DNA of 64,000 bases, taken from Pseudooceanicola nanhaiensis (GTDB lineage Bacteria; Pseudomonadota; Alphaproteobacteria; Rhodobacterales; Rhodobacteraceae). Each line of letters starts with the position of its first letter. Position 1 is the first letter of the stretch. Below the pieces are notes generated by a model. That model saw only the letters and a program-made list of their open reading frames with translations. It searched no databases and was not told where the DNA came from. A program made the position numbers and the translations under genes. Location of the stretch: the NCBI RefSeq assembly GCF_020171315.1, contig NZ_JAIUZP010000001.1:868001-932000 (forward strand). Direction: 5' to 3'. Positions 14,751 through 64,000 of this stretch are shown here, piece after piece.

Positions 14751-14788
14751 CCGCACAAATTTTCCTTACGCGGGGGAGGTTTACAAAA

Positions 14789-14817
14789 CTGTCACCCCAG
14801 CGTCATCCATGCATCAC
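14789..14817 (+). promoter_or_regulatory. Candidate PHO box (PhoB site) before ugpB
   Basis: CTGTCAC - CCCA - GCGTCAT - CCAT - GCATCAC gives three 7-mers at an 11-base period, 43-71 bases upstream of the ugpB start and on its strand. ugp operons are PhoB-regulated in enterobacteria and rhizobia. The second and third repeats are weaker than the first. Confidence 0.6.
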
Positions 14818-14859
14818 CGAACGCGCTGATACCTCCGGCAATCTTTTCAGGAGGCAATC

Positions 14860-23581: not shown

Positions 23582-23584
23582 TCC

Positions 23585-24496: not shown

Positions 24497-24499
24497 TCC

Positions 24500-26149
24500 A
24501 TGAGCGACACCCAAGACACCGTCCTCTCGATCCGCAATCTGACCATCGACCTGCCCGAAGGCGGCGACCGGCCCCATGCGGTGGAAAACCTGAACCTCGA
24601 CGTGAAGCGCAACGAGATCGTCTGCATCGTGGGCGAATCCGGTTCCGGCAAGTCGATCACCTCCTTCACCACCATGGGGCTGCTGCCCCGGGTGCTGAAA
24701 CCCTCGCAGGGGGAGGTGCTCTTCGAGGGCACTGATGTCCTCAAGCTGTCGGACAAGCAGCATTCCAAGCTGCGCGGCAACCGCATGGCGATGATCTTCC
24801 AGGAGCCGATGTCGGCCCTGAACCCCTGCTATACCGTGGGGGACCAGATCGAGGAGGTCTTTGCCACCCACTCCAGCATGACGAAGTCGGAGCGCCGTGC
24901 GCGCACGATCAAGCTGCTGGACGAGGTGCACCTGCCCGAGCCGGAGCGGATCTACCATTCTTTCCCGCACCAGCTTTCGGGTGGTCAGCGTCAGCGGATC
25001 GTCATCGCCATCGCCCTTGCGATGGACCCGGCGCTGCTGATCGCGGACGAGCCGACGACCGCGCTCGACGTGACGACGCAGGCGCAGATCCTCAGCCTCT
25101 TCAAGCAGCTGAAAGAGACGCATTCGGCGGGCATCATGTTCGTGACCCACGACTTCGACGTGGTGGCCGAGATCGCCGACCGCGTCGTCGTGATGCAGAA
25201 GGGCCTCGTGGTGGAGCAGGGGACGGCGGACGAGGTCCTGAACCGGCCCAAGCACCCCTACACCCGTCAGTTGATCGACGCCGTGCCGCGCCGCACCCGC
25301 GAAGCGCCGCCCTCGATCGAGGGCAACGAGGTGGTGATGAAGGTCGTCGCGCTGGAAAAGACGTTCCACACGTCGCGGACGCTCTTTGCGCCGGCCCGCA
25401 CCGTGAAGGCGGTGCAGGACGTGAACCTCACCATCCGCAAGGGTGAGACGCTGGGCATCGTGGGCGAATCCGGGTCGGGCAAGTCCACGCTGGTGCGCTG
25501 CCTTATCCGCCTGACCGACATCGACGATGGCGCGGTCTGGATCGGCGGCAAGGAATTCTCGCGCGTCCCGCGCGGGCAGCTCCATGACTGGCGCAAGAAG
25601 ATCCAGATCATCTTCCAGGACCCCTACGGCTCGCTCAACCCGCGCCGCACCATCGGCGACCAGCTGGTCGAAGGGCCGGTGAACTTCGGCGTGCCCCGCA
25701 AGGTGGCCATGCAGAAGGCCCGCGAACTGCTGCGCATCGTGCGGATGGAGCAGGACGCGCTGCACCGCTATCCGAACCAATTCTCGGGCGGTCAGCGGCA
25801 GCGGATCTGCATTGCCCGCGCCCTGATGGTGGAGCCGGAAATCCTGATCGCGGATGAAAGCGTTTCGGCGCTCGATGTGTCCGTGCAGAAAGAGGTTCTG
25901 AACCTGCTGGCCGAGATCAAGGAAGAGATGGGCCTGACCATGCTCTTCATCACCCACGACCTCCGCGTCGCGGCCCAGGTCAGCGACAACATCGTGGTGA
26001 TGAACAAGGGCCAGATCGTCGAGCGCGGCAACGCGGATCAGGTCTTCTCGAACCCGCAGAACGACTACACCAAGAAACTGCTCGCCGCGATGCCGGGCCA
26101 GGGATGGGAAGTCCCCGATATCGCAGCACTGGAGCGGGCCGGGGCCTGA
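24500..26149 (+). CDS. Fused dual ABC ATPase (DppD-DppF type)
   Basis: At 549 residues this contains two complete nucleotide-binding domains. The first has Walker [10 protein letters not shown], signature LSGGQRQR and [11 protein letters not shown]. The second has [19 protein letters not shown] and [11 protein letters not shown]. Each is followed by the oligopeptide-transporter C-terminal region, with the [13 protein letters not shown] motif in the first. The second Walker B reads DES instead of DEP, common in this family. One polypeptide thus supplies both ATPases for the two permeases. Confidence 0.94.
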
Positions 26150-47751: not shown

Positions 47752-48033
47752 TTACGACTTGGCGGCCTTCTTGGGAGCGGGCTTGGCGGGCACCTCGATG
47801 TTGATTTCGAGGCTCGAGACTTCGTCGCCCTTTTCCATCCGGATCTCGACCGCGTCGCTGTCGATTTCCATGTGGCGGCGGATCACCTCGAGGATGTCGC
47901 GCTGCAGGGCCGGCAGGTAGTCGGGCGAGCTGCCGCCCGAACGCTCGTGGGCCAGCAGGATCTGCAGCCGTTCCTTCGCGGCGCGGGCGGAGTTGGCCTT
48001 GCGCGGCCAGGGGATCAGGCCGAACGTCTTCAT
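47752..48033 (-). CDS. minE: Cell division topological specificity factor MinE
   Basis: A 93-residue protein. The N-terminal part ARAAKERLQILLAHERSG interacts with MinD and the membrane; the C-terminal domain VIRRHMEIDSDAVEIRMEKGDEVSSLEINIEV gives dimerisation. A lysine/alanine/proline tail (AKPAPKKAAKS) is added. The start overlaps the minD stop by 4 bases. It drives MinCD oscillation that places the septum. Confidence 0.95.
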   Translation of the reverse strand: MKTFGLIPWPRKANSARAAKERLQILLAHERSGGSSPDYLPALQRDILEVIRRHMEIDSDAVEIRMEKGDEVSSLEINIEVPAKPAPKKAAKS

Positions 48034-48860
48034 GTCGCCCGCCCGAACAGACGCCCGATGAGGCCCGGCTTGCGCTCGCTCTCGATCTTCATCTCGAGGT
48101 CCTCGCCATCGAGACGCGCCACGGCGGCCTCGTAGGCGCGGCTGGCGGCGGACGGATCGTCCAGCACGACCGGCACGCCGAGGTTCGAAGCCCGCAGCAC
48201 CGCCTGGCTTTCCGGCACGATGCCGAGCAGCGGCACCGCGAGAATGTCGAGCACGTCATCCACGGTCATCATCTCGCCGTTCTCGACCCGGGTGGTGTCG
48301 TAGCGGGTCAGCAGGACCTGTGCCTTGATGCTCTCGCCGTTCTCGGCCTTGGCGGTCTTGCTGTTGAGCAGCCCCAGCACCCGGTCGCTGTCGCGGACCG
48401 AGGAGACCTCGGGGTTGGTCACGATCACGGCCTCGTCGGCATAGTACATCGCCAGATGCGCGCCGCGCTCGATGCCCGCCGGGCTGTCGCAGATGATGTA
48501 GTCGAAGTCTTCGCGCAGCTCGTCGAGGACCTTCTTCACGCCTTCCTGTGTCAGCGCATCCTTGTCGCGGGTCTGCGAGGTCGGCAGGATCGAGAGGTTG
48601 TCGAGCCGCTTGTCCCGGATCAGCGCCTGCTTCAGCTTGGCGTCGCCCTGGATCACGTTGATGAAGTCGAAGACCACACGGCGTTCGCAGCCCATGATCA
48701 TGTCGAGGTTCCGCAGGCCGACGTCGAAGTCGATGACCACGGTCTTGTGGCCCCGCTTCGCGAGCGCTGCACTGATCGCCCCGGCCGAGGTGGTCTTGCC
48801 GACCCCGCCCTTGCCCGAGGTGATGACGATCACCTTGCTGTTTCCGCGTTCCTCTTTCAC
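48030..48860 (-). CDS. minD: Septum site-determining ATPase MinD
   Basis: A 276-residue deviant-Walker ATPase with SGKGGVGKTTSAGA, DFDVGLRNLD and CDSPAGIERGA. The C-terminal amphipathic membrane-targeting helix is KPGLIGRLFGRAT. It recruits MinC to the membrane and is released by MinE. Overlaps minC and minE by 4 bases at both ends. Confidence 0.96.
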   Translation of the reverse strand: MKEERGNSKVIVITSGKGGVGKTTSAGAISAALAKRGHKTVVIDFDVGLRNLDMIMGCERRVVFDFINVIQGDAKLKQALIRDKRLDNLSILPTSQTRDKDALTQEGVKKVLDELREDFDYIICDSPAGIERGAHLAMYYADEAVIVTNPEVSSVRDSDRVLGLLNSKTAKAENGESIKAQVLLTRYDTTRVENGEMMTVDDVLDILAVPLLGIVPESQAVLRASNLGVPVVLDDPSAASRAYEAAVARLDGEDLEMKIESERKPGLIGRLFGRAT

Positions 48861-49603
48861 CGTTTGCTCCTAGCTGTATCCGCGTCCGTTCCGCCCACCG
48901 GCTCGACGTGGAGGCTTTCGCCCTCCAGCCGGACCATCACGCTGCGGTGGCGCAGCGCATCCCCGATGTTGTCGCTGGTGCGGTAGAGCCCGGCGATCGC
49001 CAGCAGTTCCGCATCGAGGTCGTGACAGAAGATTCGCGCGTTCTGGTCCCCGTGGACCCCGGCCATGGCGCGCCCGCGCAGGCGGCCATAGACATGGATG
49101 TTGCCCGCCGCGATCAGCTCGGCACCCGAGCTGACGGGCCCGATCACGATCAGGTCGCCGCGATCCGCCATCACCGTCTGCCCCGACCGCACCGGGCGCT
49201 CGATCACGAGGTTGTCGGGCGGCAGTAGCCGCTTGGGATCGCGTCCGCCCGGGCTGCGCCGGTCGCGCGAGGGCAGGGGGGCGTCACGCCCCAGCGAAAT
49301 GCGGATCAGCCCCGCCGCCTCGGCCGCGGCGAATTGCGCGTCGGTGGCGTTGAACACCCCGAAGGCCGACAGGCGGCGCGTGCGCAACTCGCGCAGGATG
49401 GCGCGGAAATCGGCGTTGCTGGCGATCTCGGGCGCCTTGCCCATGTCGAGCACCAGCGGGGCGTTCTCGAAGAAATGGGGGGTCTGGCGCAGCTTCTCGT
49501 CGAGCGCGTCCCAGAAGGCCGCGTCGGGCAGCCCGCCTGCGGGCTGTAGCGAGACGGCGGTCAGGAACCGCCCCCGGATCTGGAAAGGTCTGACGTCGGT
49601 CAC
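48857..49603 (-). CDS. minC: Septum inhibitor MinC
   Basis: About 248 residues. The N-terminal FtsZ-inhibiting domain begins FQIRGRFLTAVSLQPAGG, and the C-terminal beta-helix has VIGPVSSGAELIAAGNIHVYGRLRGRAMAG. The start is uncertain: GTG at 49603 with AGGG upstream gives an N terminus of family-like length, while GTG at 49636 or ATG at 49771 are possible. It blocks FtsZ rings away from mid-cell. Confidence 0.9.
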   Translation of the reverse strand: MTDVRPFQIRGRFLTAVSLQPAGGLPDAAFWDALDEKLRQTPHFFENAPLVLDMGKAPEIASNADFRAILRELRTRRLSAFGVFNATDAQFAAAEAAGLIRISLGRDAPLPSRDRRSPGGRDPKRLLPPDNLVIERPVRSGQTVMADRGDLIVIGPVSSGAELIAAGNIHVYGRLRGRAMAGVHGDQNARIFCHDLDAELLAIAGLYRTSDNIGDALRHRSVMVRLEGESLHVEPVGGTDADTARSKR

Positions 49604-49949
49604 GACGCCGCCCTGACGGGCGTCGGTCTGAAACACCTGCTCACTGTTGCTCCTGCTCGGTCGTATCCGGCGGATTTGCTCCGCCCGTTGCTCTCGGCCT
49701 TTTGGCCTTGTCCCGGGGAGTCGCTCCCCCCGGTCGTGCGCCATTACGCGCCCGCGCGGGTCTCCGTCCAACAGATGTGATCGTCAAGCCATCCGCTCGG
49801 CAGAAAGGCGCTGCTTCACGTGTGGTCATGCGCGGCGCGCCGCCGGAAAGGGGCGCGCAACCGTGCGGACTGCCTGCGTTTTGGGACGCGGCCACGGGGC
49901 GGCAAGGCGGTCGAACCGCTGATGTCTGGCGATGTCTGGGGAAAACCAA
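49604..49949. other. Upstream region of minCDE
   Basis: About 345 bases between the minC start and tRNA-Glu, both on the minus strand. It should hold the min promoter and the tRNA 3' processing region. No additional gene was recognised. Confidence 0.5.
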
Positions 49950-51172: not shown

Positions 51173-53026
51173 ATGACCCACGCATCCGAGCCAACATCGG
51201 CGACTCCGCCGGTCTCTTATGCGATTCTCGATCAGTCTCTTTGGACGAGATTTCAGCAGGCAGAGACGCTTCCGCAGTACCTCGAAACATGGCTGGGTCT
51301 CGTGACCCGGCAGGTGGACGGTCTTGCCACGGGTCTGCTGCTCTCCGGAGAGGCGCCCGACGTCGGTCCCTTCGGGGAAACCGCGCGCTGGCCTGCCGGC
51401 AGCGCCGCAGAGGCCGACTTGCACGAGGTCGCGCAGCGCGCGCTCGAGGCCCGGCAGCCGGTGGTCATCGGCGAGGGCACGGCGCGGCGCGTTCTGGCGC
51501 AGCCTCTCATCGTGATGGAGGGGCTGTTCGGCGTTGTGGCGATCTCGGCCCCTGCGACGGCGGCCCCGACCACGGCGCTCTTCCGCAGGCTGCAATGGGG
51601 CGCCGGCTGGATCGAGCTGCTGCTGCGCCGCGAACAGGAGGCCCGTGACGGCGAACTCCGCGAGCGGATAACCGTCGCCTTCGACAGTCTGGCCACCCTA
51701 CTCGAACATCCCCGCCTCGACGAAGCCTCCGCCGCGCTGGTGACCGAACTCGCGCGCCGGATGGACTGCGAAACCGTGAGCCTCGGCCTCAGGCACGGGC
51801 GCCGGATGCGGGTGCAGGCGGTCTCCAGCGCGTCCAGCTTCGGTCGCCGGTCCAACCTGATCCGGGAGGTCGGTTTCGCCATGGACGAGGCCGTCGACCA
51901 GGAGGCGGTGATCCTCTGGCCCGAACCGGAGGGCTGGGAGTTCCGCGTTGCCCGCGCCCATGAGGACCTCGCGCGTTCGCACGGGGTCGGCAGCGCGCTG
52001 ACCATTCCGCTGACCGCCGGAAACGATATCATCGGGGCGCTGACCTTCGAGCGCCGGGCTGACGCCCCCTTCACCGCGGCCGAGGTCGAGGTCTGCGATG
52101 CCGTGGCCAGCGTGGCCGGGCCGATCATTCACGACCGTCAGCTTGCAAGCCGCTGGCTGCCCCGCCGGGCGCTGGCCTCGGTGGCGGCAGGGCTCATGGC
52201 GCTGCTTGGGCCGTCGCATTTCGGTGCCAAGCTGGCGACGCTCGTGCTGGCGGGGCTGGGGGCCTTCCTGTGGTTCAGCCAGACCGAATACGACGTGACC
52301 TCGCCCGCACGGATCGAGGGCACGGTGCAGCGCAGCATCGTGGCGCCGTTCAACGGTTACCTTGCCGGCCAGTCGGCGCGGGCCGGGGACGTGGTCGAGG
52401 CGGACCAGATCATCGCGGTGCTGGATGAGAAGGACCTGTCCCTCGAACAACTGCGCCTTGCCACGGCGCTGCAACAGCGCACCCGCGAGCTGGAGCGCGC
52501 GATTGCCGAGCGCGAGATCGCGGAGGCCAATATCATCCGGTCGCAGATCGCCCAGGCAGAGGCCCAGCTGGGCCTCGTCGAGGAGCAGCTGGCCCGCACG
52601 CGCATCCGCGCCCCCTTTGCCGGCTATGTGGTCGAGGGCGACCTGAGCCAGAACGTCGGCGGGTCGATCGAACGCGGCCAGACCCTGTTCCGGATCGCGC
52701 CGCTCGACAGTTTCCGCGTGGTCCTCGAGGTGGACGAGCGCGACATCGACGCCATCGCCAGCGATCAGGCCGGCAGCCTGCGTCTGGCGGCCTTCCCCGA
52801 GCGTCCGCTGGACTACCGGGTGACATCGATCACCCCGCTGGCACGGCAGGGCGAGGGGCGCAATTTCTTCCGGGTCGAGGCCGAGCCTCTGGGCGAGAGC
52901 GCCGCGCTGCGGCCCGGCATGGAGGGCATCGCCCGCACCGCCATTTCGCAGGAGCCGCTGATCTGGGTGCTGGGGCACACGCTGGCCGACTGGGTCCGCC
53001 TGGCCTGGTGGAGGTGGCAGCCATGA
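51173..53026 (+). CDS. GAF-domain/HlyD membrane-fusion protein
   Basis: This 617-residue protein joins cytoplasmic sensing to a periplasmic adaptor. Residues about 25-150 look like a degenerate GAF unit, and 165-320 a GAF domain (MDCETVSLGLRHGRR, GSALTIPLTAGNDIIGALTFERR). A membrane helix lies at about 352-370 (LATLVLAGLGAFLWFS). Then come a barrel-sandwich half (IVAPFNGYLAG), a coiled coil at about 420-478, the second half (IRAPFAGYVVEGDLSQNVGGSI) and a beta-barrel region to the end. The stop overlaps the next start (ATGA). It is probably the inner-membrane adaptor of an export machine whose state depends on a cytoplasmic ligand or partner. Confidence 0.85.
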   Translation: MTHASEPTSATPPVSYAILDQSLWTRFQQAETLPQYLETWLGLVTRQVDGLATGLLLSGEAPDVGPFGETARWPAGSAAEADLHEVAQRALEARQPVVIGEGTARRVLAQPLIVMEGLFGVVAISAPATAAPTTALFRRLQWGAGWIELLLRREQEARDGELRERITVAFDSLATLLEHPRLDEASAALVTELARRMDCETVSLGLRHGRRMRVQAVSSASSFGRRSNLIREVGFAMDEAVDQEAVILWPEPEGWEFRVARAHEDLARSHGVGSALTIPLTAGNDIIGALTFERRADAPFTAAEVEVCDAVASVAGPIIHDRQLASRWLPRRALASVAAGLMALLGPSHFGAKLATLVLAGLGAFLWFSQTEYDVTSPARIEGTVQRSIVAPFNGYLAGQSARAGDVVEADQIIAVLDEKDLSLEQLRLATALQQRTRELERAIAEREIAEANIIRSQIAQAEAQLGLVEEQLARTRIRAPFAGYVVEGDLSQNVGGSIERGQTLFRIAPLDSFRVVLEVDERDIDAIASDQAGSLRLAAFPERPLDYRVTSITPLARQGEGRNFFRVEAEPLGESAALRPGMEGIARTAISQEPLIWVLGHTLADWVRLAWWRWQP

Positions 53027-55221
53027 CGCAGCGCAGCTGGTCCAGCACCTCCTGGTACAGGGTGGCCGGCTTCCGGCCACGGCTGCGGGCCCATGCGCGC
53101 TTCCACCGTCACATCTACCGCGGCACGCTCTGGTTCGTGCTGCAGGACCGGGTCTCGGGCCGGTTCCACCGCTTCACCCCCGAAGCCTATCGCCTGATCT
53201 GCATGATGGATGGCAACCGCACCCTGGCGCAGATCTGGGACCTCGCGCTCAGCCAGCTGGCGCTGGATGCGGTGACGCAGGACGAACTCGTCCGGCTGGT
53301 GGGGCAGCTCTACTCGGCAGACGTGCTCGCAGGGGACGTCCCGCCGGACATTGTCGAGCTTTCGGACCGGGGGCGGCGGGCCGCGCGCCAGAAGATCCTG
53401 CGCTCCGTCATGAATCCCCTGGCGCTGCGCCTGCCGGTCTTCGATCCGGACGGGTTCCTCTCGGCCACCATGCCGCTGGTGCGCCCGCTCTACTCGATCT
53501 TCGGGCTGCTGCTGTTCCTTGCGGTGGTGGGCTATGGCCTCGTGCTGGCGGCGCTGAACTGGGGCCCGCTCACCGAGAACGTCTTCGACCGGGTCAGCAC
53601 GGCCGAGAACATGCTGCTGCTGATGGTGGCCTACCCGGCGGTCAAGGCCCTGCACGAGCTGGGCCACGCCTATACGATCAAGCGCTGGGGCGGGTCGGTC
53701 CATGAGATCGGGGTGATGTTCCTCGTCTTCGTGCCGGTGCCCTATGTGGACGCCTCCGACAGTATCGCCTTCCCGGCCAAGAGCCGCCGGATGCTGGTCG
53801 GCGCGGCGGGCATCCTCGTCGAGGTGTTCCTTGCGGCCATCGCCATGATCATCTGGGCCGGGGCCGAGGAGGGGCTGCTGCGCGCCTTCGCCTTCAACGT
53901 GATGCTGGTGGGCGGGGTCTCGACACTGCTCTTCAACGGCAACCCGCTTCTGCGCTTCGACGGCTACTACGTCTTCAGCGACTGGATCGAGATCCCGAAC
54001 CTCGGCCAGAGGGCCAATGCCTATGTGGGCTACCTCGTGCAGCGCTATGCCTTCGGGCTGCGGTGGGCCGAAAGCCCGGTGACGGCCCCGCGTGAGGGAC
54101 GCTGGCTCTTCAGCTATGCCATCGCGGCCTTCCTCTACCGGCTCACGATCACCATGGGGATCGTCGGCCTCGTGGCGACGCGCTTCTTCGTCGTGGGGGT
54201 GATCCTTGCGGTCTGGGCCCTGTTCCTGATGCTGATCCTGCCGCTGCTCAAGGGGCTCTGGTACGTGGTCGCGGACCCGGCGCTCCGGCGCAACCGGGGG
54301 CGCGCGCTGGCGCTGACGGGCGTCGTCCTCGCGGCGATCGTGACCGCCGTCCTGACGGTGCCGGTGCCCTACAACACCATGGCCGAGGGCGTCGTCTCGC
54401 CCCGGCCTGCCGCCTTCGCCAATGCGACGGCGGAGGGCGTCGTGACCGAGGTCTACGTGCGCCCGGGCCAGATCGTGTCGGCCGGTGCGCCCCTGATGCG
54501 CATCGAGGACCCGCTGATCGAGGCCCGTCGCGCGGTGCTGGAAGCGCGGCTCGGCGAGATCGCGCGCCGGTTGGAGGCGGAGCGGGTCTCGGAGCGGGTG
54601 ACGCTGAAGATCCTCGAGCAGGAGCTGGAGGCGGCCCGTGCCGACCTCGCCCTAACCGAAACGCGCATCCGCGAGCAGACCGTGCTGGCCGGGGCGGAGG
54701 GGCAGGTGATCCTGCCCGATCCCGAAAGCCTCATCGGGCGCTACGCCCGGCCGGGCGATCTGCTGGCGGTGGTGGCGGCCTTCCGCGACCCGCTGATCCG
54801 CGTCGCCGTGCCCGAGTCCCGGGCCGAGGAGGTCCGCAGCGACACCCGCACCACCGAGGTCCGCTTCTTCGGCGATCACGCGGGCCGGCCTGCGCGGGTG
54901 ATCCGCGCCACGCCGGGCCTGACACGCGCGCTTCCGAGCGCGGCACTTGCCACCAATGGTGGCGGCCAGCTGCTGCTGGACCCGACCGCGCCGGCGGACC
55001 GCATCCAGACGCTGGAGCCGGTGTTCCTGCTCGACCTCGAGGTCGGCGCGCCGACGCAGGTGAACAGCTACGGCGACCGGGTCTTCGTGCGCTTTTCCCA
55101 CGGCGAGACCCCGATCGCGGCCCGGCTCTATCGCGCGGGCACCCGGATATTCCTGAAGTACTTCGCGGCCCCCGACCGGGTCGCGTCCCTGAGCAAGCCA
55201 ACCATAACAAGCCAACTCTGA
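53023..55221 (+). CDS. PqqD-like / M50 site-2 protease / HlyD fusion protein
   Basis: A 732-residue polytopic protein. The first about 110 residues resemble a PqqD-type winged helix. A membrane core at about 150-445 has the zinc-protease motif HELGH at 211-215 and the second metal motif NGNPLLRFDG at 305-314, so the M50 active site is complete. After the last helix (about 428-446) comes a barrel-sandwich hybrid domain split by a coiled coil at about 495-550, as in HlyD-type adaptors. Start at 53023 is preceded by GGAGG. Likely a membrane protease or clamp that acts on, or holds, the exported protein. Confidence 0.88.
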   Translation: MTQRSWSSTSWYRVAGFRPRLRAHARFHRHIYRGTLWFVLQDRVSGRFHRFTPEAYRLICMMDGNRTLAQIWDLALSQLALDAVTQDELVRLVGQLYSADVLAGDVPPDIVELSDRGRRAARQKILRSVMNPLALRLPVFDPDGFLSATMPLVRPLYSIFGLLLFLAVVGYGLVLAALNWGPLTENVFDRVSTAENMLLLMVAYPAVKALHELGHAYTIKRWGGSVHEIGVMFLVFVPVPYVDASDSIAFPAKSRRMLVGAAGILVEVFLAAIAMIIWAGAEEGLLRAFAFNVMLVGGVSTLLFNGNPLLRFDGYYVFSDWIEIPNLGQRANAYVGYLVQRYAFGLRWAESPVTAPREGRWLFSYAIAAFLYRLTITMGIVGLVATRFFVVGVILAVWALFLMLILPLLKGLWYVVADPALRRNRGRALALTGVVLAAIVTAVLTVPVPYNTMAEGVVSPRPAAFANATAEGVVTEVYVRPGQIVSAGAPLMRIEDPLIEARRAVLEARLGEIARRLEAERVSERVTLKILEQELEAARADLALTETRIREQTVLAGAEGQVILPDPESLIGRYARPGDLLAVVAAFRDPLIRVAVPESRAEEVRSDTRTTEVRFFGDHAGRPARVIRATPGLTRALPSAALATNGGGQLLLDPTAPADRIQTLEPVFLLDLEVGAPTQVNSYGDRVFVRFSHGETPIAARLYRAGTRIFLKYFAAPDRVASLSKPTITSQL

Positions 55222-55234
55222 CAGGAAGGACGAT

Positions 55235-56026
55235 ATGACAACCCAACTTCTCTTCTACGAACGTGCCGTTCCCGTAACCGCCAAGGCGCACCGCGACCTG
55301 AGCATTCGCACCGGGCAGACCTACCGGTTTGCCGAGAAGGTGAACTCGGTTCCGCTGACGGCGATCGAATTTTCGGCCGCCGCCGCGCATTACCCCATCG
55401 TCTTCGCGGGGACCGCGGAAAAGGTCATGCCGGTTGTCATCCTCGGCGTGAAGGACGCCGAGAACTTCTATGTCGATGCCGAGGGCAAGTGGACCGGGGG
55501 CTACATTCCCGCCTTCGTGCGCCGCTATCCCTTCGTCTTCGCGACGGATCAGGACAGCAAGAACTTCATCCTCTACGTGGATGAGACCTTCGAGGGCTGC
55601 AACCGGAACGGCAAGGGGGAGCGCCTGTTCGACGCTGACGGCACCCAGACGCAGTACCTGCAGAACATCCTGCGCTTCCTGCAGGAATATCAGGGCCAGT
55701 TCCGCCGGACCGAGGCCTATTGCAAGCGCCTGATGGACCTCGAGCTGCTTCAGCCGATGCAGGCGCAGTTCAATCTGGCCGACGGCGCCCGCCGGTCGCT
55801 CTCGGGCTTCATGGCGATCAACCGCGAGAAGCTGCGCAAGCTGGGGGATGCGGACCTGCGCGCCATGTTCGACACGGACGAACTGGAATGCACCTTCCTG
55901 CACCTCCACTCGATGCGGCATTTCAACGACATGCTGGGCAAGCTCGCCAGCCCGGCGGCCGAGGCGCCGGACACCGCGCCGGAGGTCGCCAGCGACGAAC
56001 CGGTGCCCGAAACCGAGGAGGCCTGA
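55235..56026 (+). CDS. SapC family protein
   Basis: A 263-residue soluble protein of the SapC family (PF07277), with VPLTAIEFSAAAAHYPIVF, YIPAFVRRYPFVF and FNDMLGKLASP. The family is named from the Campylobacter fetus sap locus for S-layer export, where its role is unknown. No signal peptide or membrane helix is visible, so it is probably cytoplasmic; a chaperone-like or cytoplasmic holding role for the giant substrate is a guess. It starts 13 bases after the M50 fusion gene, with AGGAAGG upstream. Confidence 0.88.
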   Translation: MTTQLLFYERAVPVTAKAHRDLSIRTGQTYRFAEKVNSVPLTAIEFSAAAAHYPIVFAGTAEKVMPVVILGVKDAENFYVDAEGKWTGGYIPAFVRRYPFVFATDQDSKNFILYVDETFEGCNRNGKGERLFDADGTQTQYLQNILRFLQEYQGQFRRTEAYCKRLMDLELLQPMQAQFNLADGARRSLSGFMAINREKLRKLGDADLRAMFDTDELECTFLHLHSMRHFNDMLGKLASPAAEAPDTAPEVASDEPVPETEEA

Positions 56027-56033
56027 TCCTTCC

Positions 56034-58028
56034 ATGCCCCGACCATCGGCAGCCAGCACACTCGCCAGCCCCCCGGCCGTCAGGTTCTACCCCGAAAGGG
56101 CAGACCGCGATGACGGCTGGCTGGAGGAGGCTGGGCAGGCGGTGGTCGGATCGGTCGCGCGCGGGGCCTCGCGCGCGACCGCCCCGCTGCGTGACAGGGT
56201 CACGGTGCGCCGCATCCGGCGGGCCGGGCAACGGCTGGCCGGTCTGGACGAGGCCGCCTTCGATGCCGAACTGGGCCGGCTGCGGATGCAGCTGCGCCGT
56301 TGCGGACTGACCGACGCGACCCTGCGCCTCGGATTGGCCTGCGCCCGCGAGGCGACCTTCCGCACCCTCGGCCTGCGCCACCATGACGTCCAGATCCGCG
56401 GCGCGCTCGCCATGCTGCGCGGCCGCCTGATCGAGATGGACACCGGCGAGGGCAAGACGATCACCGCCGGCCTTGCCGCCGCCACTGCCGCGCTCTGTGG
56501 GGTGCCGACCCATGTGATCACCGTGAACAACTATCTCGCCGAACGCGATGCCGAAGGGCTCGCGCCGCTCTATGCCCGCATGGGCCTGCGCGTCGGCGTG
56601 ATCCGCGAGAAGATGCCCCCCGCAGAGCGGCGCGCGGCCTATCACGCGGACATCACCTACGCCTCCAACACCGAGATCGCCTTCGACTACCTGCGCGACC
56701 GGATCGCCTTCGGGCCGGAGGGGCCGCAGGGCCTGCGTCAGCGGCTGCGCCGTCTCAGCGGCGGGGACACCCGGCAGGAGCCGGTGATGCGCGGGCTCGC
56801 CTTCGCCATCGTGGACGAGGCCGACAGCGTGCTGGTAGACGAGGCCCGGACGCCGCTGATCATCTCGCGCCAGACCGATCCCGAGGCAGAGGCGATCTGG
56901 GCCAATCGCGCGCTTGCGCTGGCCCGTCTGCTCACCTCGGGGAGCGATTACAAGCTGAACCCCGAGGAACGCCGCGTCCATCTGACCGAGCGCGGCAAGG
57001 CCCGGCTGGAGGAGCTGACCGAGGGCGAGGGCGGCATCTGGGCCAGCCGCATCAAGCGCGAGGAGGTGGTCTACCAGGCGCTGTCGGCGCTGTTCCTGTT
57101 CCACAGCGGCGACCATTACCTCGTGCGGGAGGGCAAGGTGCAGATCGTCGACGAATACACCGGCCGCCTGCAGCCGGACCGGTCGTGGTCCGACGGGATG
57201 CACCAGCTGGTCGAGGCCAAGGAGGGCGTCGAGGTCACCGCGCAGAACCTGCCGGTCGCCCGCATGACCTATCAGCGCTTCTTCCGCCGCTACGAGAAAC
57301 TGGCCGGGATGACCGGCACCGCCCGCGAGGTGCGCGGCGAGTTGCGCAGCGTCTTCGGTCTCGTCGTGCAGCGCATCCCGCCGAACCGCCGCTCGCGGCT
57401 CCGTATCCATCCGCCCCGGGTCTATCGCACTGCCGAGCGCAAATGGTCCGCCGTGGTGGCCGAGGCGCGCCGCGCCATCGCCGCCGGCCGTCCGGTTCTG
57501 ATCGGCACCCGGTCCGTGGCCACTTCCGAGACCGTGTCGGAGTGGTTGTCGCGGGCGGGGATGGACCACGTGGTCCTCAACGCCGAGAACGACGGCGAGG
57601 AGGCGCAGATCATCGCCCGCGCCGGCGAACCCGGGCGCATCACCGTGGCCACAAACATGGCCGGGCGCGGGGTCGACATCGCGCTGGCCCCGGGGGTGTC
57701 CGAGAAGGGCGGGCTGCATGTGATCCTGACCGAACGCCACGACAGCGCCCGCATCGACCGGCAGTTCGCCGGGCGGACCGGACGGCGCGGGGAACCGGGC
57801 ACCGCCGCCACCTTGCTCTCGCTCGAGGATCCGCTGGCCGCTGTGCTGCGTGCGCCGCTTCTGAAGGGATGGGCCCGGGTGCCGCTCTTCGGGCTGGCCG
57901 CGCGACCCAGGGTCTTCGACCGGGCTCAGCGCCGCGCCGAGAAGAGCCATGCCCGCGCCCGCAAGGACCTCGTCCGGCAGGACCGCCGGCTCGATCGCAT
58001 GTTGTCTTTCACCGGAGGTCTCGAATGA
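56034..58028 (+). CDS. Short SecA-like preprotein translocase ATPase
   Basis: A 664-residue SecA homologue; canonical SecA is about 850-900 residues. The DEAD motor is complete: Walker A MDTGEGKT at 135-142, VITVNNYLAERD, DEADSVLVDEARTPLIIS at 261-278, MTGTA near 426, TNMAGRG at 540-546 and QFAGRTGRRGEPG near 577-589. Only about 75 residues follow, so the helical wing/scaffold and the C-terminal SecB-zinc tail are absent or minimal. The N-terminal 75 residues are divergent. The longer open frame upstream lies in the SapC gene. It should drive an operon-specific export step; the partner channel is not encoded here. Confidence 0.9.
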   Translation: MPRPSAASTLASPPAVRFYPERADRDDGWLEEAGQAVVGSVARGASRATAPLRDRVTVRRIRRAGQRLAGLDEAAFDAELGRLRMQLRRCGLTDATLRLGLACAREATFRTLGLRHHDVQIRGALAMLRGRLIEMDTGEGKTITAGLAAATAALCGVPTHVITVNNYLAERDAEGLAPLYARMGLRVGVIREKMPPAERRAAYHADITYASNTEIAFDYLRDRIAFGPEGPQGLRQRLRRLSGGDTRQEPVMRGLAFAIVDEADSVLVDEARTPLIISRQTDPEAEAIWANRALALARLLTSGSDYKLNPEERRVHLTERGKARLEELTEGEGGIWASRIKREEVVYQALSALFLFHSGDHYLVREGKVQIVDEYTGRLQPDRSWSDGMHQLVEAKEGVEVTAQNLPVARMTYQRFFRRYEKLAGMTGTAREVRGELRSVFGLVVQRIPPNRRSRLRIHPPRVYRTAERKWSAVVAEARRAIAAGRPVLIGTRSVATSETVSEWLSRAGMDHVVLNAENDGEEAQIIARAGEPGRITVATNMAGRGVDIALAPGVSEKGGLHVILTERHDSARIDRQFAGRTGRRGEPGTAATLLSLEDPLAAVLRAPLLKGWARVPLFGLAARPRVFDRAQRRAEKSHARARKDLVRQDRRLDRMLSFTGGLE

Positions 58029-58822
58029 TCCGCCTGCCGCTGCTCACCCTTCTGGTCCTCGCCGCGCCCGTCCTGCGGGCCGAGAGTTTCGACTGTCTCA
58101 TGGACCCGTCGGACCTGATCGAGCTGGGCAGCCCGGCCACCGGCCTGCTGGACGCGGTGACGGTGGATCGCGGCGACACGGTGCAGGCCGGACAGGAGGT
58201 GGCGCGGCTGGTCTCGGAGATCGAGCAGAGCACCGTCGACCTGCTGCGTCTGCGGGCCGAGAACGACACCGTCGTGCGCTCGCAGGCCGAACAGCTCGAG
58301 ATGATCGAGAAGCGCTTCGAGAGGGTTTCGGCCATGCGCGGACGCGGGCTGACCACCGAAGAGGTCTTCAACCAGGTCGAGGGCGAGCTGATCGCCTCGC
58401 GCGGGCTGCTGGCGCAGGCCGAACTGAACCAGGAGATCGCCGTCAAGGAACTGGCCCGGGCCGAGATCGCCCTGGCGCAGCGCCGGATCACCAGCCCCGT
58501 GGACGGGGTCGTGGCCAAGCGCGTGATGGGGCCGGGCGAATACATCAGCAACGACGATCACGTGCTGGAAATCGTCCAGCTCGATCCCTTGAAGATCGAG
58601 GCCTTCCTGCCGGTCTCGCTCTATGCCGAGGTCAGGGTGGGCGACGCCGCCACGATCCGTCCCGTGGCCCCGCTCGACGGGGCCTACGCCGCCACGGTCA
58701 CCGCTGTGGACCGCGTCTTCGACGCGGCCTCGGGGACCTTCGTCATCGAATTGCAACTGCCGAACGCCGATGGCGCGCTGCCCGCAGGGCACCGCTGCCG
58801 GCTGGAATTCGGCGCCGGGTAA
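58025..58822 (+). CDS. Periplasmic HlyD-family adaptor subunit
   Basis: A 265-residue adaptor with an N-terminal signal peptide (MIRLPLLTLLVLAAPVLRA). Barrel-sandwich halves are ELGSPATGLLDAVTVDRGDTVQAG and ITSPVDGVVAKRVMGPGEY, around a coiled-coil hairpin at about 65-145; a beta-barrel follows. A single cysteine near residue 24 (FDCLMD) is not in a clear lipobox. The start overlaps the SecA-like stop (ATGA). It would bridge the inner-membrane parts to an outer-membrane duct that is not visible in this window. Confidence 0.88.
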   Translation: MIRLPLLTLLVLAAPVLRAESFDCLMDPSDLIELGSPATGLLDAVTVDRGDTVQAGQEVARLVSEIEQSTVDLLRLRAENDTVVRSQAEQLEMIEKRFERVSAMRGRGLTTEEVFNQVEGELIASRGLLAQAELNQEIAVKELARAEIALAQRRITSPVDGVVAKRVMGPGEYISNDDHVLEIVQLDPLKIEAFLPVSLYAEVRVGDAATIRPVAPLDGAYAATVTAVDRVFDAASGTFVIELQLPNADGALPAGHRCRLEFGAG

Positions 58823-58888
58823 ACACAGAACACCGGGCCACCTTCGGGGCCCTTCAGTCGCAACGACGAGTTTCAGGGAGATAAAACT

Positions 58889-61800
58889 ATGGCTTTCCCC
58901 TTTGGTATGAAGACCATCTGGAACGGCGCAACTCCGGTCGATCCTGAAACTCGCTCGCGACAACGTCCGCAACCGAAATGGTTCGCAGGCCAGACCCGGC
59001 ACCGGTTCTTCGCCCAGTTGCGTGCCATCCGCGAAGGCCGCGTGCCGGTGCGGGTCTCCGCGATCAAGGTCGAGGCGCTGGAGCCGCGCTACCTGCTGTC
59101 GGCGGACATCATGCCGATGGCCGACGCGGGCGGGGACGGGGTCGCCTGGACGCTGGAGTTCGACAACGTCGCCCATATGTTCCGGATCTACGACGACGAC
59201 ACCGGCGAGCTGGTGGACGAGAAGGCCCTGAGCGACGTCAGCGAGATGATCCTGACCGGCACCGACGGCAACGACCGGCTGACGCTCAGCGTCGCGGGGG
59301 CGTTCCCGCTGGGGGTCTCGCTGTTCTTTGACGGCGGCGATGGCGACGACGTGCTGGCGGGCTCCGAACAGGATACCGAATGGCGCATCGACGGTCACAA
59401 CGCGGGCTCGGTCAGCGGGCTGCGCTTTGCCAATGTCGAAACGCTGCAGGGCGCGGCCGACACCGATGACAGCTTCATCGTCGAGGCGGAGGGCGCGCTC
59501 GACGGAGGGGTCGACGGTGGCGACGGCGGCTATGACGTGGTCGATTTCCAAGGCGGCACCTTCGAGAACGTCGAGTTCACGGCGCTGGACGGCCATTCGG
59601 GCAGCGTCACGCGCGACGGTGCGGTGCTGCAGTACGCCGGGCTCGAGCCGGTCAGCAGCACGATGGCGGCGACCAATGTCACCGTGAATTTCGCGGTTCC
59701 GCTGCTGTTGGACGAGGTCAGCGACAATGCGATCCTGCAGGCCGGCGGCAACGGCCTGACGATCACCAGCGCCTCCGGTGTGCCGACCTTCGAGGTCCAT
59801 GACATCGCGCTGCCGACCGGCACGCTGACGATCAACATGCTGGATGATCAGGGCCTGTTCCCGAACCTCGACGAATTCACCGACGACCTGCCGACGCTGC
59901 TGAACCTGATCGCCGCCGTGGCGGAAGGCGATATCCTCGAGGTGCGCAACCTCGACCTCGGCGCCGCGAACCTCGTGGTCGACGGGGGCGCCGGGTTGGA
60001 CCGGGTGACCTTCACCGGCGATTTCGACACCACCGGCAACGTGACCATCACCGCCGAACAGATCGAGGTCGAGAGTGGCGCCACGGTCGATGCGGGCAAC
60101 ATCACCTTCACCGCCGCCGCGACGGACAGCGGCCTGCTGCCCGAGTTGCTGGAGGACAAGACCGACGGTCTCTATCTGATCATCCCCACCGCCTCGATCG
60201 AGGTGAGGGGCGCGGTCTCGGCCACGGCGGGCGATCTGACGATGACGGCCTCGGCCACGTCGAGCGCCTCCGTCGACCGGCTCAGCTTCGGCAGCGCCGC
60301 CTTCCGGGGCTCGATCATCGCCGGGCTGAACACGGCTCGCATCCTCGTGGGCGAGGAGGGCAACTTCGTCGCGGGCGGAGCCCTTAGCGCCACCGGCAAT
60401 GTGGATCTCGATACCTCGGTGAGCCTGACCGTCACCACCGACGACACTGCCGACAACACCGACAGCCAGGCTGATGTGGACGCGGCCATCGCGGTCGCCA
60501 CCGTCTTCACCGCCTCCGAGATCGGCGTCTATGGCACCTCGTCCGTCGTCTCTGGCGGGACCCTGGCAATGGATGCTGCCTCCACCGTTGACGTGACCAG
60601 CACCGTGGACGGCTCGGGCGGGCAGGCCGGCGCGACCGTCGCCGTCACCGTGGCGGACATCACCACCGATGTCACCGTGACCGACAGCGCCGTTCTGGGC
60701 AGCGGCGACACCGACAGCATCGCGCTGGGCGCAACGGCGCAGAGCACGCTGGCGACCTCCGCCACCTCCACCGCCGGTGGCGCCGAGCAGGGGGGCACCT
60801 CCAACACCTCGGAACAGCAACTGGCCGACAATGACGCCAGCACGCAGGACGGCGGCGGCGACATCGAATTCGCGGGCGCCGTCGTGGTGTCCGTCTTCAC
60901 CTCGAACACCGGAGTCAACCTGCTGACCGATGGCGCCGTGACGACCGCAGGAGCGGGCAGCGTAAGCCTGGCCGCCATCTCGACGGAATCCGTCAGCGGC
61001 GCGGCCAGCGGCATCAACACGGGCACCGGCGGGACCGGTGTCGGTATCGCCGTGGGCATCGGGGTGATCGACACCGACGTGCACGCCTGGTTCGGTGGCA
61101 ACGGCATCTATTCGACCTCGGCGCTCAGCGGCAGTGCAACGCTCGACGCGGGGTCGACCTATGAACTGACGGCGGTGTCGGGCGCAGGCGCAGCCTCGCA
61201 GACCGCCATTGCGGGCAGCCTCGTGCTGCATTTCGTGACCACGGATGTCAGCGCGCTGGTGCTCAGCGGGTCGGACCTCGCCCTCGGCGGGGCGGACCTC
61301 AGCCTGAGCGCGAGTAGCGAAACCAGTACCACCTCCAGCGCGACGCCTGCCGAGGAAGCGGGCGAGGGCGGCGACGCCTCCACCGGCGTGGGCGCCTCCG
61401 TGGCGCTCTATGTCGGGTCGAACACGACCCGGGCGGCGCTGCAGGGCAATGCACTGGCAGACAGTCTGAACACCAACGTCGGGGCTTCGGGCCTGGGCGC
61501 GCTGACGCTGTCCGCCACGGCCGAGCATAGCGATACCACCAATGCCATGGGCGGGGCCTCCAGCACCGGCACGACCATCGGTGGCGCCGTGGCGATCGCC
61601 GTGGTCGACAACGTGACCGAGGCCGACGCCGGCACGTCGGGCACGCTGAGCGCGGACAGCATCATCGGCACGGTGGATCACACCGGCACCAGTCTCATCA
61701 CCGCGGGCGGTGAGGTGCAGGGCGGGTCGACCGCCATCGGGGCCGCGATCGCGCTTGCCTTCGTGGACAATCGCGGTTCGGCCAACCTGCGGCGCAACAT

Positions 61801-64000
61801 CGTCACCACTGGCGAGACCAGCATGACCGCGGATGTCACCGGCACCGTCACCACCCTCGCCAAGGCCACGTCGGCCGGGGCCGAGGAAGAGGCCGATCCC
61901 GAAAGCACGGGCGGTTCGGATGGTCAGGTCGCCGATCAGGTCGATTTCGCGAACAGCAAGGGCGGCAGCGCCTCCACCCCGTCCGAGGCAAGCGCGGATG
62001 GCGAGGCCGGCGCCGGTGGCGGCGTGAGCGTGGGCGCGGCCCTTGCGCTGACGGTCAGCAGCTCCGTTTCGGAGGCCGAACTGCAGGGCGTGAGCCTCAC
62101 CGCCGAGGGGCTGACGCTCGAAGCCTCGAACAACGCGGAGTCCGATGCGGTGGCCGATGCCTCCGCCTCTGCGGGTGACGGCGACTCGGTCGGGATCGCC
62201 GTTGCGATCAACTATGCCGAGATGTCGAACACCGCGGCGATCAACACGGGCTCCGTGCTGACGCTGGGGGCCGCCGGGCTGACGCTGGCCGCGACGATGC
62301 GGGATGTGGACGGCGAGGGCACCCATCGCTTCGGTGCCGCGGCGCAGTCCGGCGCATCCGGAGGCGGGACCGGCGTGGCGGGGGCCTTCGCCCTCGGCAT
62401 CACCAACGCGGACACCCGCGCCGCCATCGAAACCGGTACGACCACCACGATCACCGGGGCGGGCGACGTCTCGATGACGGCCGCCTCCACCACCTCCGCG
62501 CCCACCCGCGACGGAGAGGAGGGTACGGCCGATGCCGCTGCGGACGCGGTCTTCGCCGGCACCTCCAGCACCGATACCGAGACCACCGGCGTGGGCGTTT
62601 CCATCGCCATCGGGGTCGAGGACATCCATACCGAGGCCGAACTGGCCGACGCGGCCATCCTGACCGGCGCGGGCGACCTGACGCTGGACGCCTCGGGCGA
62701 TTACGAAAGCCAGACGGTCGCCAAGTCGGGCACCGACGGCGGTGGATCGGGCGGGGCGGGCTCGCTTGCCGTGACCGTGCACAACCGCGAGACGAAGGCC
62801 CGGATCGGCGAGGGCGACGGCCTGACGCTCGACGGGACCCTGACCGCCTCTGCCGACCATTCCGGCGAGAGCGTGACCAAGGGCGACAGCACGATGAAGG
62901 GTTCGGGCACGGCTGTCGGGGTGACGATTGCCGTGGCCTATGTCGATGACGATGGCGTGGCAGAGCTGAACCAGGACGTGACCGCCGATGGGTCGGTCCT
63001 GCTGGACGCCGATGTGGACAGTTCCTCCGAGGTCGAGGTGATCGCCTCTGCCGAGGGCGCGGATTCCGACGACGAGGACGAGACCACCGCCGATCAGCAG
63101 AACGACAAGGCCACCGCCCTTGGGCAGGAGAAATCGAACGGCAGCACCGACGGCAAGACGCTGGATGGCGCGAAGAGCGCGAACAACGATTCCGGCGGCG
63201 GCGCCTCGGGAGATGTCTCGGTCTCGGCGGCCCTTGGGGTGAACGTGGCCAATGCTTCCGCTCTGGCCACCATCGCCGACGGGCTGACCATCACCGCGGA
63301 TGCGGATGACAACAACAATGGGACCGGCATCGTCTCGGTCACCGCCAGCAACAACCTCGACGCGACGACCAGCGCCGATGCCAGCGCCAAGACCACGGCA
63401 GACGGCACCGGTGTCGGGATCGCCGTGTCGATCAACGTCGGCATCATGTCGAACCGGGCGATCATCGGGGACGGCACGACCATCGTAGCGGACGGGCTGA
63501 CCCTCGCCGCGACCACCCGCGCCCTGACCGGGGATGACGAACACAGCTTCAACGCGACTTCCAAATCGGGGGCCTCGGGCGGCAGCACCGGCGTCGCCGG
63601 CTCCTTCGCCCTCAGCTTCGAGGATGCGGACACCCAGGCGCTCTTCGGTGCCGACCAGGACGGCAATGACGACGGGACGGCCAGCCTGACCCTGCACGGC
63701 GGTGCCGTGAACGTCGACGCGCAGAGCAAGCTCAGCAATGTGACCCTCGCCGAAGGCTCGGCCGAGGCCAGCGGCAGCAGCTCCACCTCGGTCGGGATCT
63801 CGATCGCGCTCGGCATTTCGCTCAACGACACCGTGGCCCGGATCGAGGATGGCGCGGCGCTTGGCGGCTCGGCCTCCAGCTTCACGCTCGACGCGGATCA
63901 GGACAGCACGACCACCACCACCGGCAAGGCCGGTGCGCAGGGCGGCAGCAGCACCAACGTGGGCGGCGCGGTGGCGATCTCCTACGTCGAGAACCGCACC
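58889..64000 (+). CDS. Giant repetitive LEPR-XLL surface protein, truncated by the window
   Basis: Open for 1704 codons to the right edge without a stop. The start ATG has CAGGGAG upstream. The N terminus is basic and not hydrophobic, so no classical signal peptide; LEPRYLL stands at residues 64-70, the LEPR-XLL sorting-type motif of giant extracellular proteins. Two glycine/aspartate RTX-like turns (GTDGNDRL, GGDGDDVLAG) follow at about 125-165. From about residue 575 a repeat recurs some 18 times at 50-100 residue spacing, with core like TGVGIAVAINxxxxxNTA. Threonine, serine, alanine, glycine and aspartate dominate; cysteine is absent, as in surface adhesins. The exported substrate of the operon, by inference. 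Confidence 0.88.
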   Translation, partial: MAFPFGMKTIWNGATPVDPETRSRQRPQPKWFAGQTRHRFFAQLRAIREGRVPVRVSAIKVEALEPRYLLSADIMPMADAGGDGVAWTLEFDNVAHMFRIYDDDTGELVDEKALSDVSEMILTGTDGNDRLTLSVAGAFPLGVSLFFDGGDGDDVLAGSEQDTEWRIDGHNAGSVSGLRFANVETLQGAADTDDSFIVEAEGALDGGVDGGDGGYDVVDFQGGTFENVEFTALDGHSGSVTRDGAVLQYAGLEPVSSTMAATNVTVNFAVPLLLDEVSDNAILQAGGNGLTITSASGVPTFEVHDIALPTGTLTINMLDDQGLFPNLDEFTDDLPTLLNLIAAVAEGDILEVRNLDLGAANLVVDGGAGLDRVTFTGDFDTTGNVTITAEQIEVESGATVDAGNITFTAAATDSGLLPELLEDKTDGLYLIIPTASIEVRGAVSATAGDLTMTASATSSASVDRLSFGSAAFRGSIIAGLNTARILVGEEGNFVAGGALSATGNVDLDTSVSLTVTTDDTADNTDSQADVDAAIAVATVFTASEIGVYGTSSVVSGGTLAMDAASTVDVTSTVDGSGGQAGATVAVTVADITTDVTVTDSAVLGSGDTDSIALGATAQSTLATSATSTAGGAEQGGTSNTSEQQLADNDASTQDGGGDIEFAGAVVVSVFTSNTGVNLLTDGAVTTAGAGSVSLAAISTESVSGAASGINTGTGGTGVGIAVGIGVIDTDVHAWFGGNGIYSTSALSGSATLDAGSTYELTAVSGAGAASQTAIAGSLVLHFVTTDVSALVLSGSDLALGGADLSLSASSETSTTSSATPAEEAGEGGDASTGVGASVALYVGSNTTRAALQGNALADSLNTNVGASGLGALTLSATAEHSDTTNAMGGASSTGTTIGGAVAIAVVDNVTEADAGTSGTLSADSIIGTVDHTGTSLITAGGEVQGGSTAIGAAIALAFVDNRGSANLRRNIVTTGETSMTADVTGTVTTLAKATSAGAEEEADPESTGGSDGQVADQVDFANSKGGSASTPSEASADGEAGAGGGVSVGAALALTVSSSVSEAELQGVSLTAEGLTLEASNNAESDAVADASASAGDGDSVGIAVAINYAEMSNTAAINTGSVLTLGAAGLTLAATMRDVDGEGTHRFGAAAQSGASGGGTGVAGAFALGITNADTRAAIETGTTTTITGAGDVSMTAASTTSAPTRDGEEGTADAAADAVFAGTSSTDTETTGVGVSIAIGVEDIHTEAELADAAILTGAGDLTLDASGDYESQTVAKSGTDGGGSGGAGSLAVTVHNRETKARIGEGDGLTLDGTLTASADHSGESVTKGDSTMKGSGTAVGVTIAVAYVDDDGVAELNQDVTADGSVLLDADVDSSSEVEVIASAEGADSDDEDETTADQQNDKATALGQEKSNGSTDGKTLDGAKSANNDSGGGASGDVSVSAALGVNVANASALATIADGLTITADADDNNNGTGIVSVTASNNLDATTSADASAKTTADGTGVGIAVSINVGIMSNRAIIGDGTTIVADGLTLAATTRALTGDDEHSFNATSKSGASGGSTGVAGSFALSFEDADTQALFGADQDGNDDGTASLTLHGGAVNVDAQSKLSNVTLAEGSAEASGSSSTSVGISIALGISLNDTVARIEDGAALGGSASSFTLDADQDSTTTTTGKAGAQGGSSTNVGGAVAISYVENRT

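Follow-up and report, generated by a model that had tools for sequence, protein, structure and literature searches.

The described systems that come closest to the gene cluster reported here are the type I route (HlyB/HlyD/TolC) of giant RTX adhesins, the accessory Sec pathways (SecA2/SecY2 and SecA2-only), the PqqD-like/M50 proteases of ribosomal peptide systems, the N-terminal signal of planctomycete surface proteins and, for its ATPase, the truncated E. coli SecA-N68. The cluster begins at position 51173 of a 64-kb stretch of Pseudooceanicola nanhaiensis DNA (contig NZ_JAIUZP010000001.1, positions 868,001 to 932,000; hereafter the window, in whose positions coordinates are given). It consists of six genes, the last of which encodes a giant, probably surface-exposed protein with an LEPR-XLL motif and ends at 88330, past the window. 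The cluster belongs to a real, widespread gene system that is linked to LEPR-XLL giants and apparently undescribed. Judging from its sequences, it is probably a machine dedicated to exporting giants with an LEPR-XLL leader across the envelope and to processing them. In the excerpts of the open-access literature available to us, we found no description joining SecA, HlyD, M50/SapC or a giant protein in one system; an export route of LEPR-XLL proteins was likewise not found described there, the motif being mentioned in passing only.

Like type I secretion of giant RTX adhesins, the system combines HlyD adaptors, TolC-type genes in some operons and giant RTX cargo. It differs in that the cluster has no ABC ATPase, that two of its three adaptors are fusions, with an M50 protease and a GAF domain respectively, and that the LEPR cargo carries a conserved N-terminal leader. 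It resembles accessory Sec in having an additional SecA-like ATPase devoted to a large protein of surface type; in contrast to those pathways, the cluster has no SecY2, its SecA-like protein lacks wing domain, finger and tail, its partners are HlyD and M50 proteins, and it is proteobacterial. The SecA-like protein has nearly the same domain content as E. coli SecA-N68 (PDB 5k9t), but represents a natural, recurring family with an extra scaffold helix and not a laboratory truncation. PqqD-like domains bind the leaders of ribosomal peptides, and the PqqD-like/M50 proteases of those systems (NF041824, daptide; NF058609, YydH/LiaK) have an N-terminal plus M50 layout similar to that of the fusion protein in the window, which NF041824 matches with 159.5 bits over residues 24-412, under the model cut-off of 300. 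The window fusion differs from them in its HlyD arm and in its link to giants, not short peptides.

Composition of the cluster

All six genes lie on the + strand in a single direction, and their Pfam and NCBIfam matches agree with the families named in the preliminary description of this DNA:

51173..53026, + strand: GAF-HlyD inner-membrane adaptor, 617 aa (PF01590 and PF13437)
53008..55221, + strand: PqqD-like/M50 intramembrane metalloprotease/HlyD fusion, 737 aa (GTG start at 53008; ATG at 53023 possible)
55235..56026, + strand: SapC-family protein, 263 aa (PF07277, 242.6 bits)
56034..58028, + strand: SecA-like ATPase, 664 aa (PF07517, 308.8 bits; PF21090, 164.4 bits; PF01043, 86.6 bits)
58025..58822, + strand: periplasmic HlyD/RND-type adaptor, 265 aa (ATG at 58025; signal-peptide-like start by hydropathy)
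58889..64000, + strand: giant LEPR-XLL protein, first 1704 aa in the window (NF012209, 29.9 bits, cut-off 17)

The junctions, in gene order, are an overlap of 4 or 19 bases, gaps of 13 and 7 bases, an overlap of 4 bases and a gap of 66 bases; four of them thus overlap or lie within 13 bases, as had been described. Neither SecY nor an ABC ATPase, the type I kind included, is among the six genes, again in agreement with that description, and three of the proteins are of HlyD type by Pfam. The first of these has a GAF part, one transmembrane-like stretch at about residues 350-368 (hydropathy) and then an HlyD arm; the last scores 104.3 bits (longer frame) against TIGR01730 (cut-off 94.9). The SecA-like gene starts at the ATG at 56034, giving 664 aa; the listed 726-aa open reading frame (ORF) from 55848 begins too early. 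At E<=1e-5, PADLOC gave no defence-system match for four cluster proteins, and a defence-system identity was dropped.

The M50 fusion scores 22.3 bits against PF02163, under the Pfam cut-off of 27.2, and carries both HELGH and NPLLRFDG. Invariance of HELGH in the M50 alignment was set aside as evidence, KALHELGH being one of two search patterns; it was replaced by a check on six relatives recovered by profile or tblastn without that pattern, and HExxH with a distal NxNPxxxxDG is present in all six, in the window copy and in a second copy of the same genome (on contig C8, below). Its HlyD_3 match (33.2 bits) is over the cut-off of 22.2; in an AF2 model of the fusion (pLDDT 88.8) the HlyD portion resembles MexA/MacA-type adaptors by Foldseek. 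The earlier label PqqD-like holds for the family: PF05402 matches 16 of 16 M50-fusion N-termini at E<=1 (best 1.7e-7), the window's own match being weak (14.1 bits, cut-off 23.4). The PDB PqqD entry 3g2b compares with this domain at E 0.013, and a three-strand/three-helix layout can be read from the predicted model.

Recurrence and association with LEPR-XLL giants

Of the three SecA_DEAD places in the genome, one, on contig C5, is the housekeeping gene and the other two are short. The short SecA outside the window, on contig C8, has its own GAF-HlyD, M50 fusion and SapC genes and adjoins a second LEPR-XLL giant of 8378 aa. The two clusters are 40-51% identical over aligned positions (GAF-HlyD, 237/589; M50 fusion, 351/703; SapC, 128/249; SecA-like, 320/642). 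The C8 giant has PKD, laminin-G and RTX matches, so the cargoes differ though the gene set is common.

A search with both M50 fusions returned 258 relatives, of which the best 80 loci were analysed; record titles place them mostly in alpha-, beta- and gammaproteobacteria. In all 73 loci that extend 1.9 kb or more upstream, GAF-HlyD immediately precedes the M50 gene. Among the 61 that extend 3 kb or more downstream, a SecA-like gene follows the M50 gene in 60 (degenerate in 3; the exception is locus L085), an HlyD gene is present somewhere in 50, and SapC lies between the M50 and SecA-like genes in 13; SapC is upstream in 14 of all 80. With starts picked by script, an 8-base M50/SecA overlap occurs in 35 of 47 junctions without intervening SapC. 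Where 9 kb was available on both sides, ORFs of 1500 aa or longer were present on the + strand in 34 of 41 loci and on the minus strand in 7 of 41. By similarity, 10 of the 80 loci have a DUF3467-type gene ahead of GAF-HlyD, confirmed by Pfam in L022. Recurrence of the set in the same genome and in the 80 loci of other genomes indicates that it is not due to chance.

An LEPR-XLL match over cut-off was found in 47 of 49 genomes bearing M50 loci, taken from 50 of the 80 loci (those of L023 and L047 are without); one of 14 controls passed at the loose setting of this test, and none of 14 at the settings of the two draws that follow. A draw of 199 genomes of the family, this one included, gave an M50 fusion of at least 500 bits in 21 (next score 319) and LEPR in 25, which fall in 20 of the 21 M50 genomes vs. 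5 of 178 others (Fisher 7e-22). A SecA match beyond the first was present in 20 of 21 vs. 2 of 178. The single M50 genome without an LEPR hit, G592, has only a 381-aa frame; the open frames in the five genomes with LEPR and no M50 fusion measure 532-1664 aa, and weak best scores in the two genomes with an extra SecA match and no M50 (G448, G456) suggest a split housekeeping gene. A SecA-like gene stands beside the M50 gene in at least 18 of 20 family genomes, the extra match in G509 and G543 being only counted. Five genomes (G000, G467, G494, G569, G611) each have a pair of M50 fusions, a pair of LEPR proteins and three SecA matches; in G611 at least two of these matches were placed. A draw of 397 genomes of the phylum gave M50 in 35 and LEPR in 39, with 32 of 35 vs. 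7 of 362 (Fisher 6e-37). The three M50-only genomes here are G635, G696 and G770, the last with an LEPR-type ORF adjoining its cluster by eye.

These data bear on the alternative that the genes adjoin by chance or through common regulation without a joint pathway. In its favour, neither SapC nor the last HlyD is a constant member, and a same-strand LEPR giant within 6 kb, present in 19 of the 26 family clusters, is missing from the other 7: the giant is divergent in G480, 10-152 kb away in G509, G557, G443 and G609, on another contig in G442 and not found in G592. Against this stand the co-occurrence over 199 and 397 genomes, the gene adjacency across genomes and the recurrent 8-base overlaps, which refute chance at the level of gene association, so that this alternative has almost no probability left. 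The link of the set, as a unit, to LEPR-XLL giants that the preliminary description proposed is thus borne out, and the absence of co-occurrence that would have refuted it was not observed. A class survey was too sparse for co-occurrence and was discarded: the M50 profile matched 26 of 387 genomes at E<=1e-40, over 600 bits only in this genome and G341, and its other matches (187-332 bits) resemble other M50-HlyD families. Across the class and family surveys, matches at 157-332 bits appear to be other M50-HlyD fusion families.

The giant and its leader

The open frame of the window giant extends to 88330 and encodes 9813 aa. In size, LEPR-XLL proteins belong with the largest that bacteria make: of the 30 open frames in the family LEPR listing, 15 are longer than 9000 aa. 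Towards its C-terminus the window giant carries RTX repeats in eight stretches, and HEIGHLLGYEH, at aa 9655 (contig C1), falls within a weak match to Peptidase_M10 (20.3 bits, cut-off 24). We take this sequence to be a metzincin-type motif, downstream of the RTX repeats, and by its sequence the giant may itself be a protease. At its other end lies the proposed export signal:

59003..59182, + strand: LEPR-XLL leader region, LEPRYLLSAD, LEPR from aa 64 (NF012209, 34.8 bits, cut-off 17)

No hydrophobic signal-peptide core is seen in the LEPR leaders by hydropathy: the peak 11-residue value of the window giant, over residues 1-100, is 1.12 vs. 2.61 at the start of the last HlyD protein, and around 25 LEPR motifs (-25 to +35) it peaks at no more than 1.96. 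Twenty-four LEPR N-termini, picked by the pattern LEPRx[LM][LM], have little in common except E-x-LEPRxLLS-x-D, with conservation of 90% or more for the flanking S and D. Of 20 LEPR N-termini from genomes, 11 fitted the strict pattern and 9 were excluded; the LEPR match of L049 was judged false and L067 was excluded from the leader alignment. The absence of a hydrophobic core is a point in favour of the dedicated machine.

The leader is possibly related to the planctomycete surface-protein signal (PF07595, RRLxxExLExRxLLA), which the available part of one source traces to a 2004 report (PMC8567305) and which is likewise an N-terminal LExRxLL-type motif on giant proteins. PF07595 matches 16 of the 24 LEPR leaders at E<=1 (best 4.1e-4). 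Points of difference are that the LEPR giants here come from another phylum and that the window's own leader gave no match. The cluster offers a way to look for the exporter that handles the planctomycete signal.

A SecA-like family without the finger region

The SecA-like protein comprises NBD1, PPXD, NBD2 and the first scaffold helix, without wing domain, two-helix finger or C-tail. Its predicted structure is confident (pLDDT 87.9, pTM 0.85) and matches SecA structures in Foldseek, including SecA-N68 (5k9t) and an isolated DEAD motor, and the family profile aligns to residues 15-608 of the 783-residue chain of B. subtilis SecA. Housekeeping SecA residues 676-892, which from E. coli SecA we take to be wing domain, two-helix finger and tail, have a coverage of 0.00 in 45 of the 45 intact SecA-likes aligned, a set in which the frames from survey genomes were chosen by GEGKT, favouring intact motors. 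All 73 SecA-class ORFs in the 80 loci, with starts picked by script, are at most 681 aa long. The Walker A GEGK and the DE of Walker B are invariant in 50 SecA-likes, an alignment that omits the degenerate L042, L045 and L076 and ORFs under 640 aa. In a tree with 12 housekeeping SecAs, the 45 SecA-likes form a group apart, with a printed node value of 0.61 that falls to 0.39 when degenerate copies are added; SecA2 families are not among the rows, and re-rooting may have shifted the node values. Scores against SecA models are 542.3 bits for TIGR00963 (cut-off 800) and 552.8 for NF009538 (cut-off 814); those against SecA2 models (498.6, 436.9, 434.6 and 370.7 bits; cut-offs 1085, 725, 930 and 1100) are far under their cut-offs, which together with the uniform C-terminal shortening rules out a full-length SecA2. 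No second SecY was found in 19 of 20 genomes bearing the system, and with the missing ABC ATPase and the low SecA2 scores this agrees with the earlier view that the set is neither a standard type I nor an accessory Sec system. The sole case of two SecY genes among the 20 is G010 (adjacent, C1:5624531-5626779, 393.7 and 220.6 bits).

In SecA, the finger enters the SecY funnel and PPXD plus scaffold form a clamp, according to the available part of one source (PMC6599042). Having kept motor and PPXD and lost the finger region, the SecA-likes are a natural family with motor and clamp and without the part that acts at SecY; a natural SecA without wing domain and two-helix finger tests how much SecA a protein motor needs. 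A two-step route could still employ such a protein as a substrate-specific partner of the single SecYEG, alone or with the housekeeping SecA, with HlyD/TolC carrying the giant outward from the periplasm. The retention of PPXD, NBD1 and NBD2 would fit this, as would published excerpts on E. coli SecA: the protein cut at 610 (SecA-N68) binds SecYEG and signal peptides and has constitutive ATPase activity (PMC5603524), and fragments of 643 and 668 residues, though not one of 609, regain translocation with separate C-terminal fragments (PMC5456053). PPXD matches are also kept in 3 of 5 motor-dead copies run against Pfam (L042, L076, G635), as they might be in an adaptor. Speaking against the two-step route are the absence of the finger-bearing region in all 45 aligned SecA-likes, the leader without hydrophobic core, and two clusters (G770, G871) with no SecA-like gene in the stretch read. 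We consider the two-step route unlikely.

Clusters with a dead or missing motor

The preferred reading, a dedicated machine for LEPR-XLL giants, has several observations against it, and we collect them here. E. coli SecA cut at 610 is unable to translocate, in the excerpt available (PMC5603524), and all 45 aligned SecA-likes end before wing and finger. The motor is moreover dead or missing in a minority: of the 34 phylum-draw M50 genomes besides this one, 27 have an intact SecA-like (at least 600 bits), the SecA-like of G341 has an internal stop, that of G689 is interrupted by a contig end, those of G635, G641 and G953 are motor-dead in the DNA at the clusters, and G770 and G871 have neither a SecA-like in the cluster stretch read nor a second SecA genome-wide at E<=1e-30. 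The genome of L076 holds just a degenerate SecA-like. Seven of the 39 phylum LEPR genomes (G661, G674, G685, G701, G705, G746, G774; frames of 854-4504 aa) have no M50 fusion at threshold and no extra SecA-like, and perhaps use a different exporter. RTX repeats, typical of type I substrates, occur in both giants of this genome. No TolC gene was found beside either of its clusters, the PF02321 hits (E<=1e-6) being on contigs C5 and C10. Finally, plasmid CP081100.1 lists GAF-HlyD, M50 and SecA with no giant, SapC or last HlyD, in an incomplete gene table.

Further cases bear on how far the motor can be dispensed with. A second SecA match at E<=1e-30 is absent from G953 and G641 also. In ten genomes whose locus is short, LEPR-less or without an intact adjacent SecA-like, a SecA-like of 744-1039 bits was present in nine; that of G632 ends at the contig end. 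For the clusters lacking an intact copy (L042, L045, L076, L084, L085), four of the five genomes hold one elsewhere. Degenerate copies (L042, L045, L076, G953, G641, G635) have lost Walker A, Walker B and motifs V and VI, and stay open over 557-675 aa. The six cluster together in the tree, with long branches that leave the grouping unsure. Full-length SecA-likes without ATPase motifs, all in the same operon position, are:

L042, 12052-13845
L045
L076, 3918-5942
L133, 4161-5984
L136, 4667-6694
L137, 3946-5943

By their sequences these are a possible pseudo-ATPase branch. With a dead ATPase, the SecA-like protein may still hold the substrate while another source supplies the energy. HExxH and NxNPLxxxDG are kept in the M50 proteins of G953, G871, G770, G641 and G635 and in one plasmid copy. 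Since these motifs are intact where the SecA-like is dead or absent, the ATPase looks less essential than the M50/HlyD core. Protease and adaptors, being more constant than the motor, look like the core of the system. The SecA-type motor of the preliminary description is thus weakened: most members have DEAD motifs and PPXD, but the intact copies aligned all stop short of wing and finger, and the motor is dead or missing in the minority above. Its feeding of a protease-associated, HlyD-like conduit is a proposed mechanism.

The steadiness of protease and adaptors, and the RTX repeats of both giants, would also suit a module acting after export, in which a type I or Sec system from another part of the genome exports the giant and the cluster cleaves, anchors or releases it on a GAF-sensed signal. 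The SecA-like protein, however, has no signal peptide, its ATPase motifs are intact in most members and it would have no obvious task outside the cytosol. Nor was any type I ABC exporter recognised by eye among the ORF families common to at least 4 of the 80 loci, where the single ABC-type family, in 4 loci, looks importer-like. We consider a post-export role improbable.

A TolC-type gene, for which the preliminary description advised reading beyond the window, was missing beside both clusters of this genome and present in others. PF02321 genes lie inside the operon in L037, L047, L052, L134, L136 and L137 (all six candidates tested), and by similarity in L048. Among 12 family genomes searched, two have an outer-membrane channel (OEP) gene near the giant: G611, about 1 kb ahead of it, and G618, at a distance of 6 kb; none was found within 50 kb on the contig of the cluster in the other 10.

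Proposed mechanism

For the dedicated machine we propose five steps, listed from the most to the least confident. A periplasmic conduit would be built from the three HlyD-type proteins together with a TolC-type channel, whether encoded in the operon or borrowed. By analogy, the PqqD-like domain of the M50 fusion may bind the non-hydrophobic leader at the inner membrane, and the M50 site could then trim or release it. The SecA-like core would hold the unfolded chain and, in most members, push it with ATP, a partner probably replacing its missing C-terminal part. Least confidently, the GAF domain might gate the machine. Passage of the inner membrane could be through SecYEG or the M50 fusion, both being in play. 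A bolder version would make this a new secretion type, with the finger-less SecA core docking on PqqD-M50-HlyD instead of SecYEG, one-step threading through HlyD/TolC, LEPR-XLL as a new signal that the PqqD-like domain recognises and M50 cleaves, and a relative serving the planctomycete LExRxLL signal. This is speculative, with a modest chance of being right.

Occurrence in annotated plasmids and flanking genes

The cluster provides candidate machine genes for LEPR-XLL giants, in named isolates and on plasmids; one culturable marine isolate that has it, plasmid-borne, is Pseudosulfitobacter sp. DSM 107133. The annotation of plasmid NZ_CP085155.1 runs LEPR-XLL, HlyD, site-2 protease, SapC, 'prepilin peptidase' and RND adaptor, and that of NZ_CP049813.1 LEPR-XLL, DUF3467, adaptor, PqqD-family protein, 'DEAD/DEAH box helicase' and adaptor. 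The cluster is not named as a system in either of them or in CP081100.1. The mislabelled SecA-like genes are:

NZ_CP085155.1 (L132), 23056-25080: SecA-like, annotated 'prepilin peptidase'
NZ_CP049813.1 (L138), 14133-16118: SecA-like, annotated 'DEAD/DEAH box helicase'

Under such names the family is hidden in public annotation. More distant M50-HlyD relatives occur on Azospirillum and enterobacterial plasmids. Upstream of the cluster in the window, on the minus strand at 48030-49771, are genes for MinC (PF05209/PF03775) and a MinD/ParA-type ATPase.

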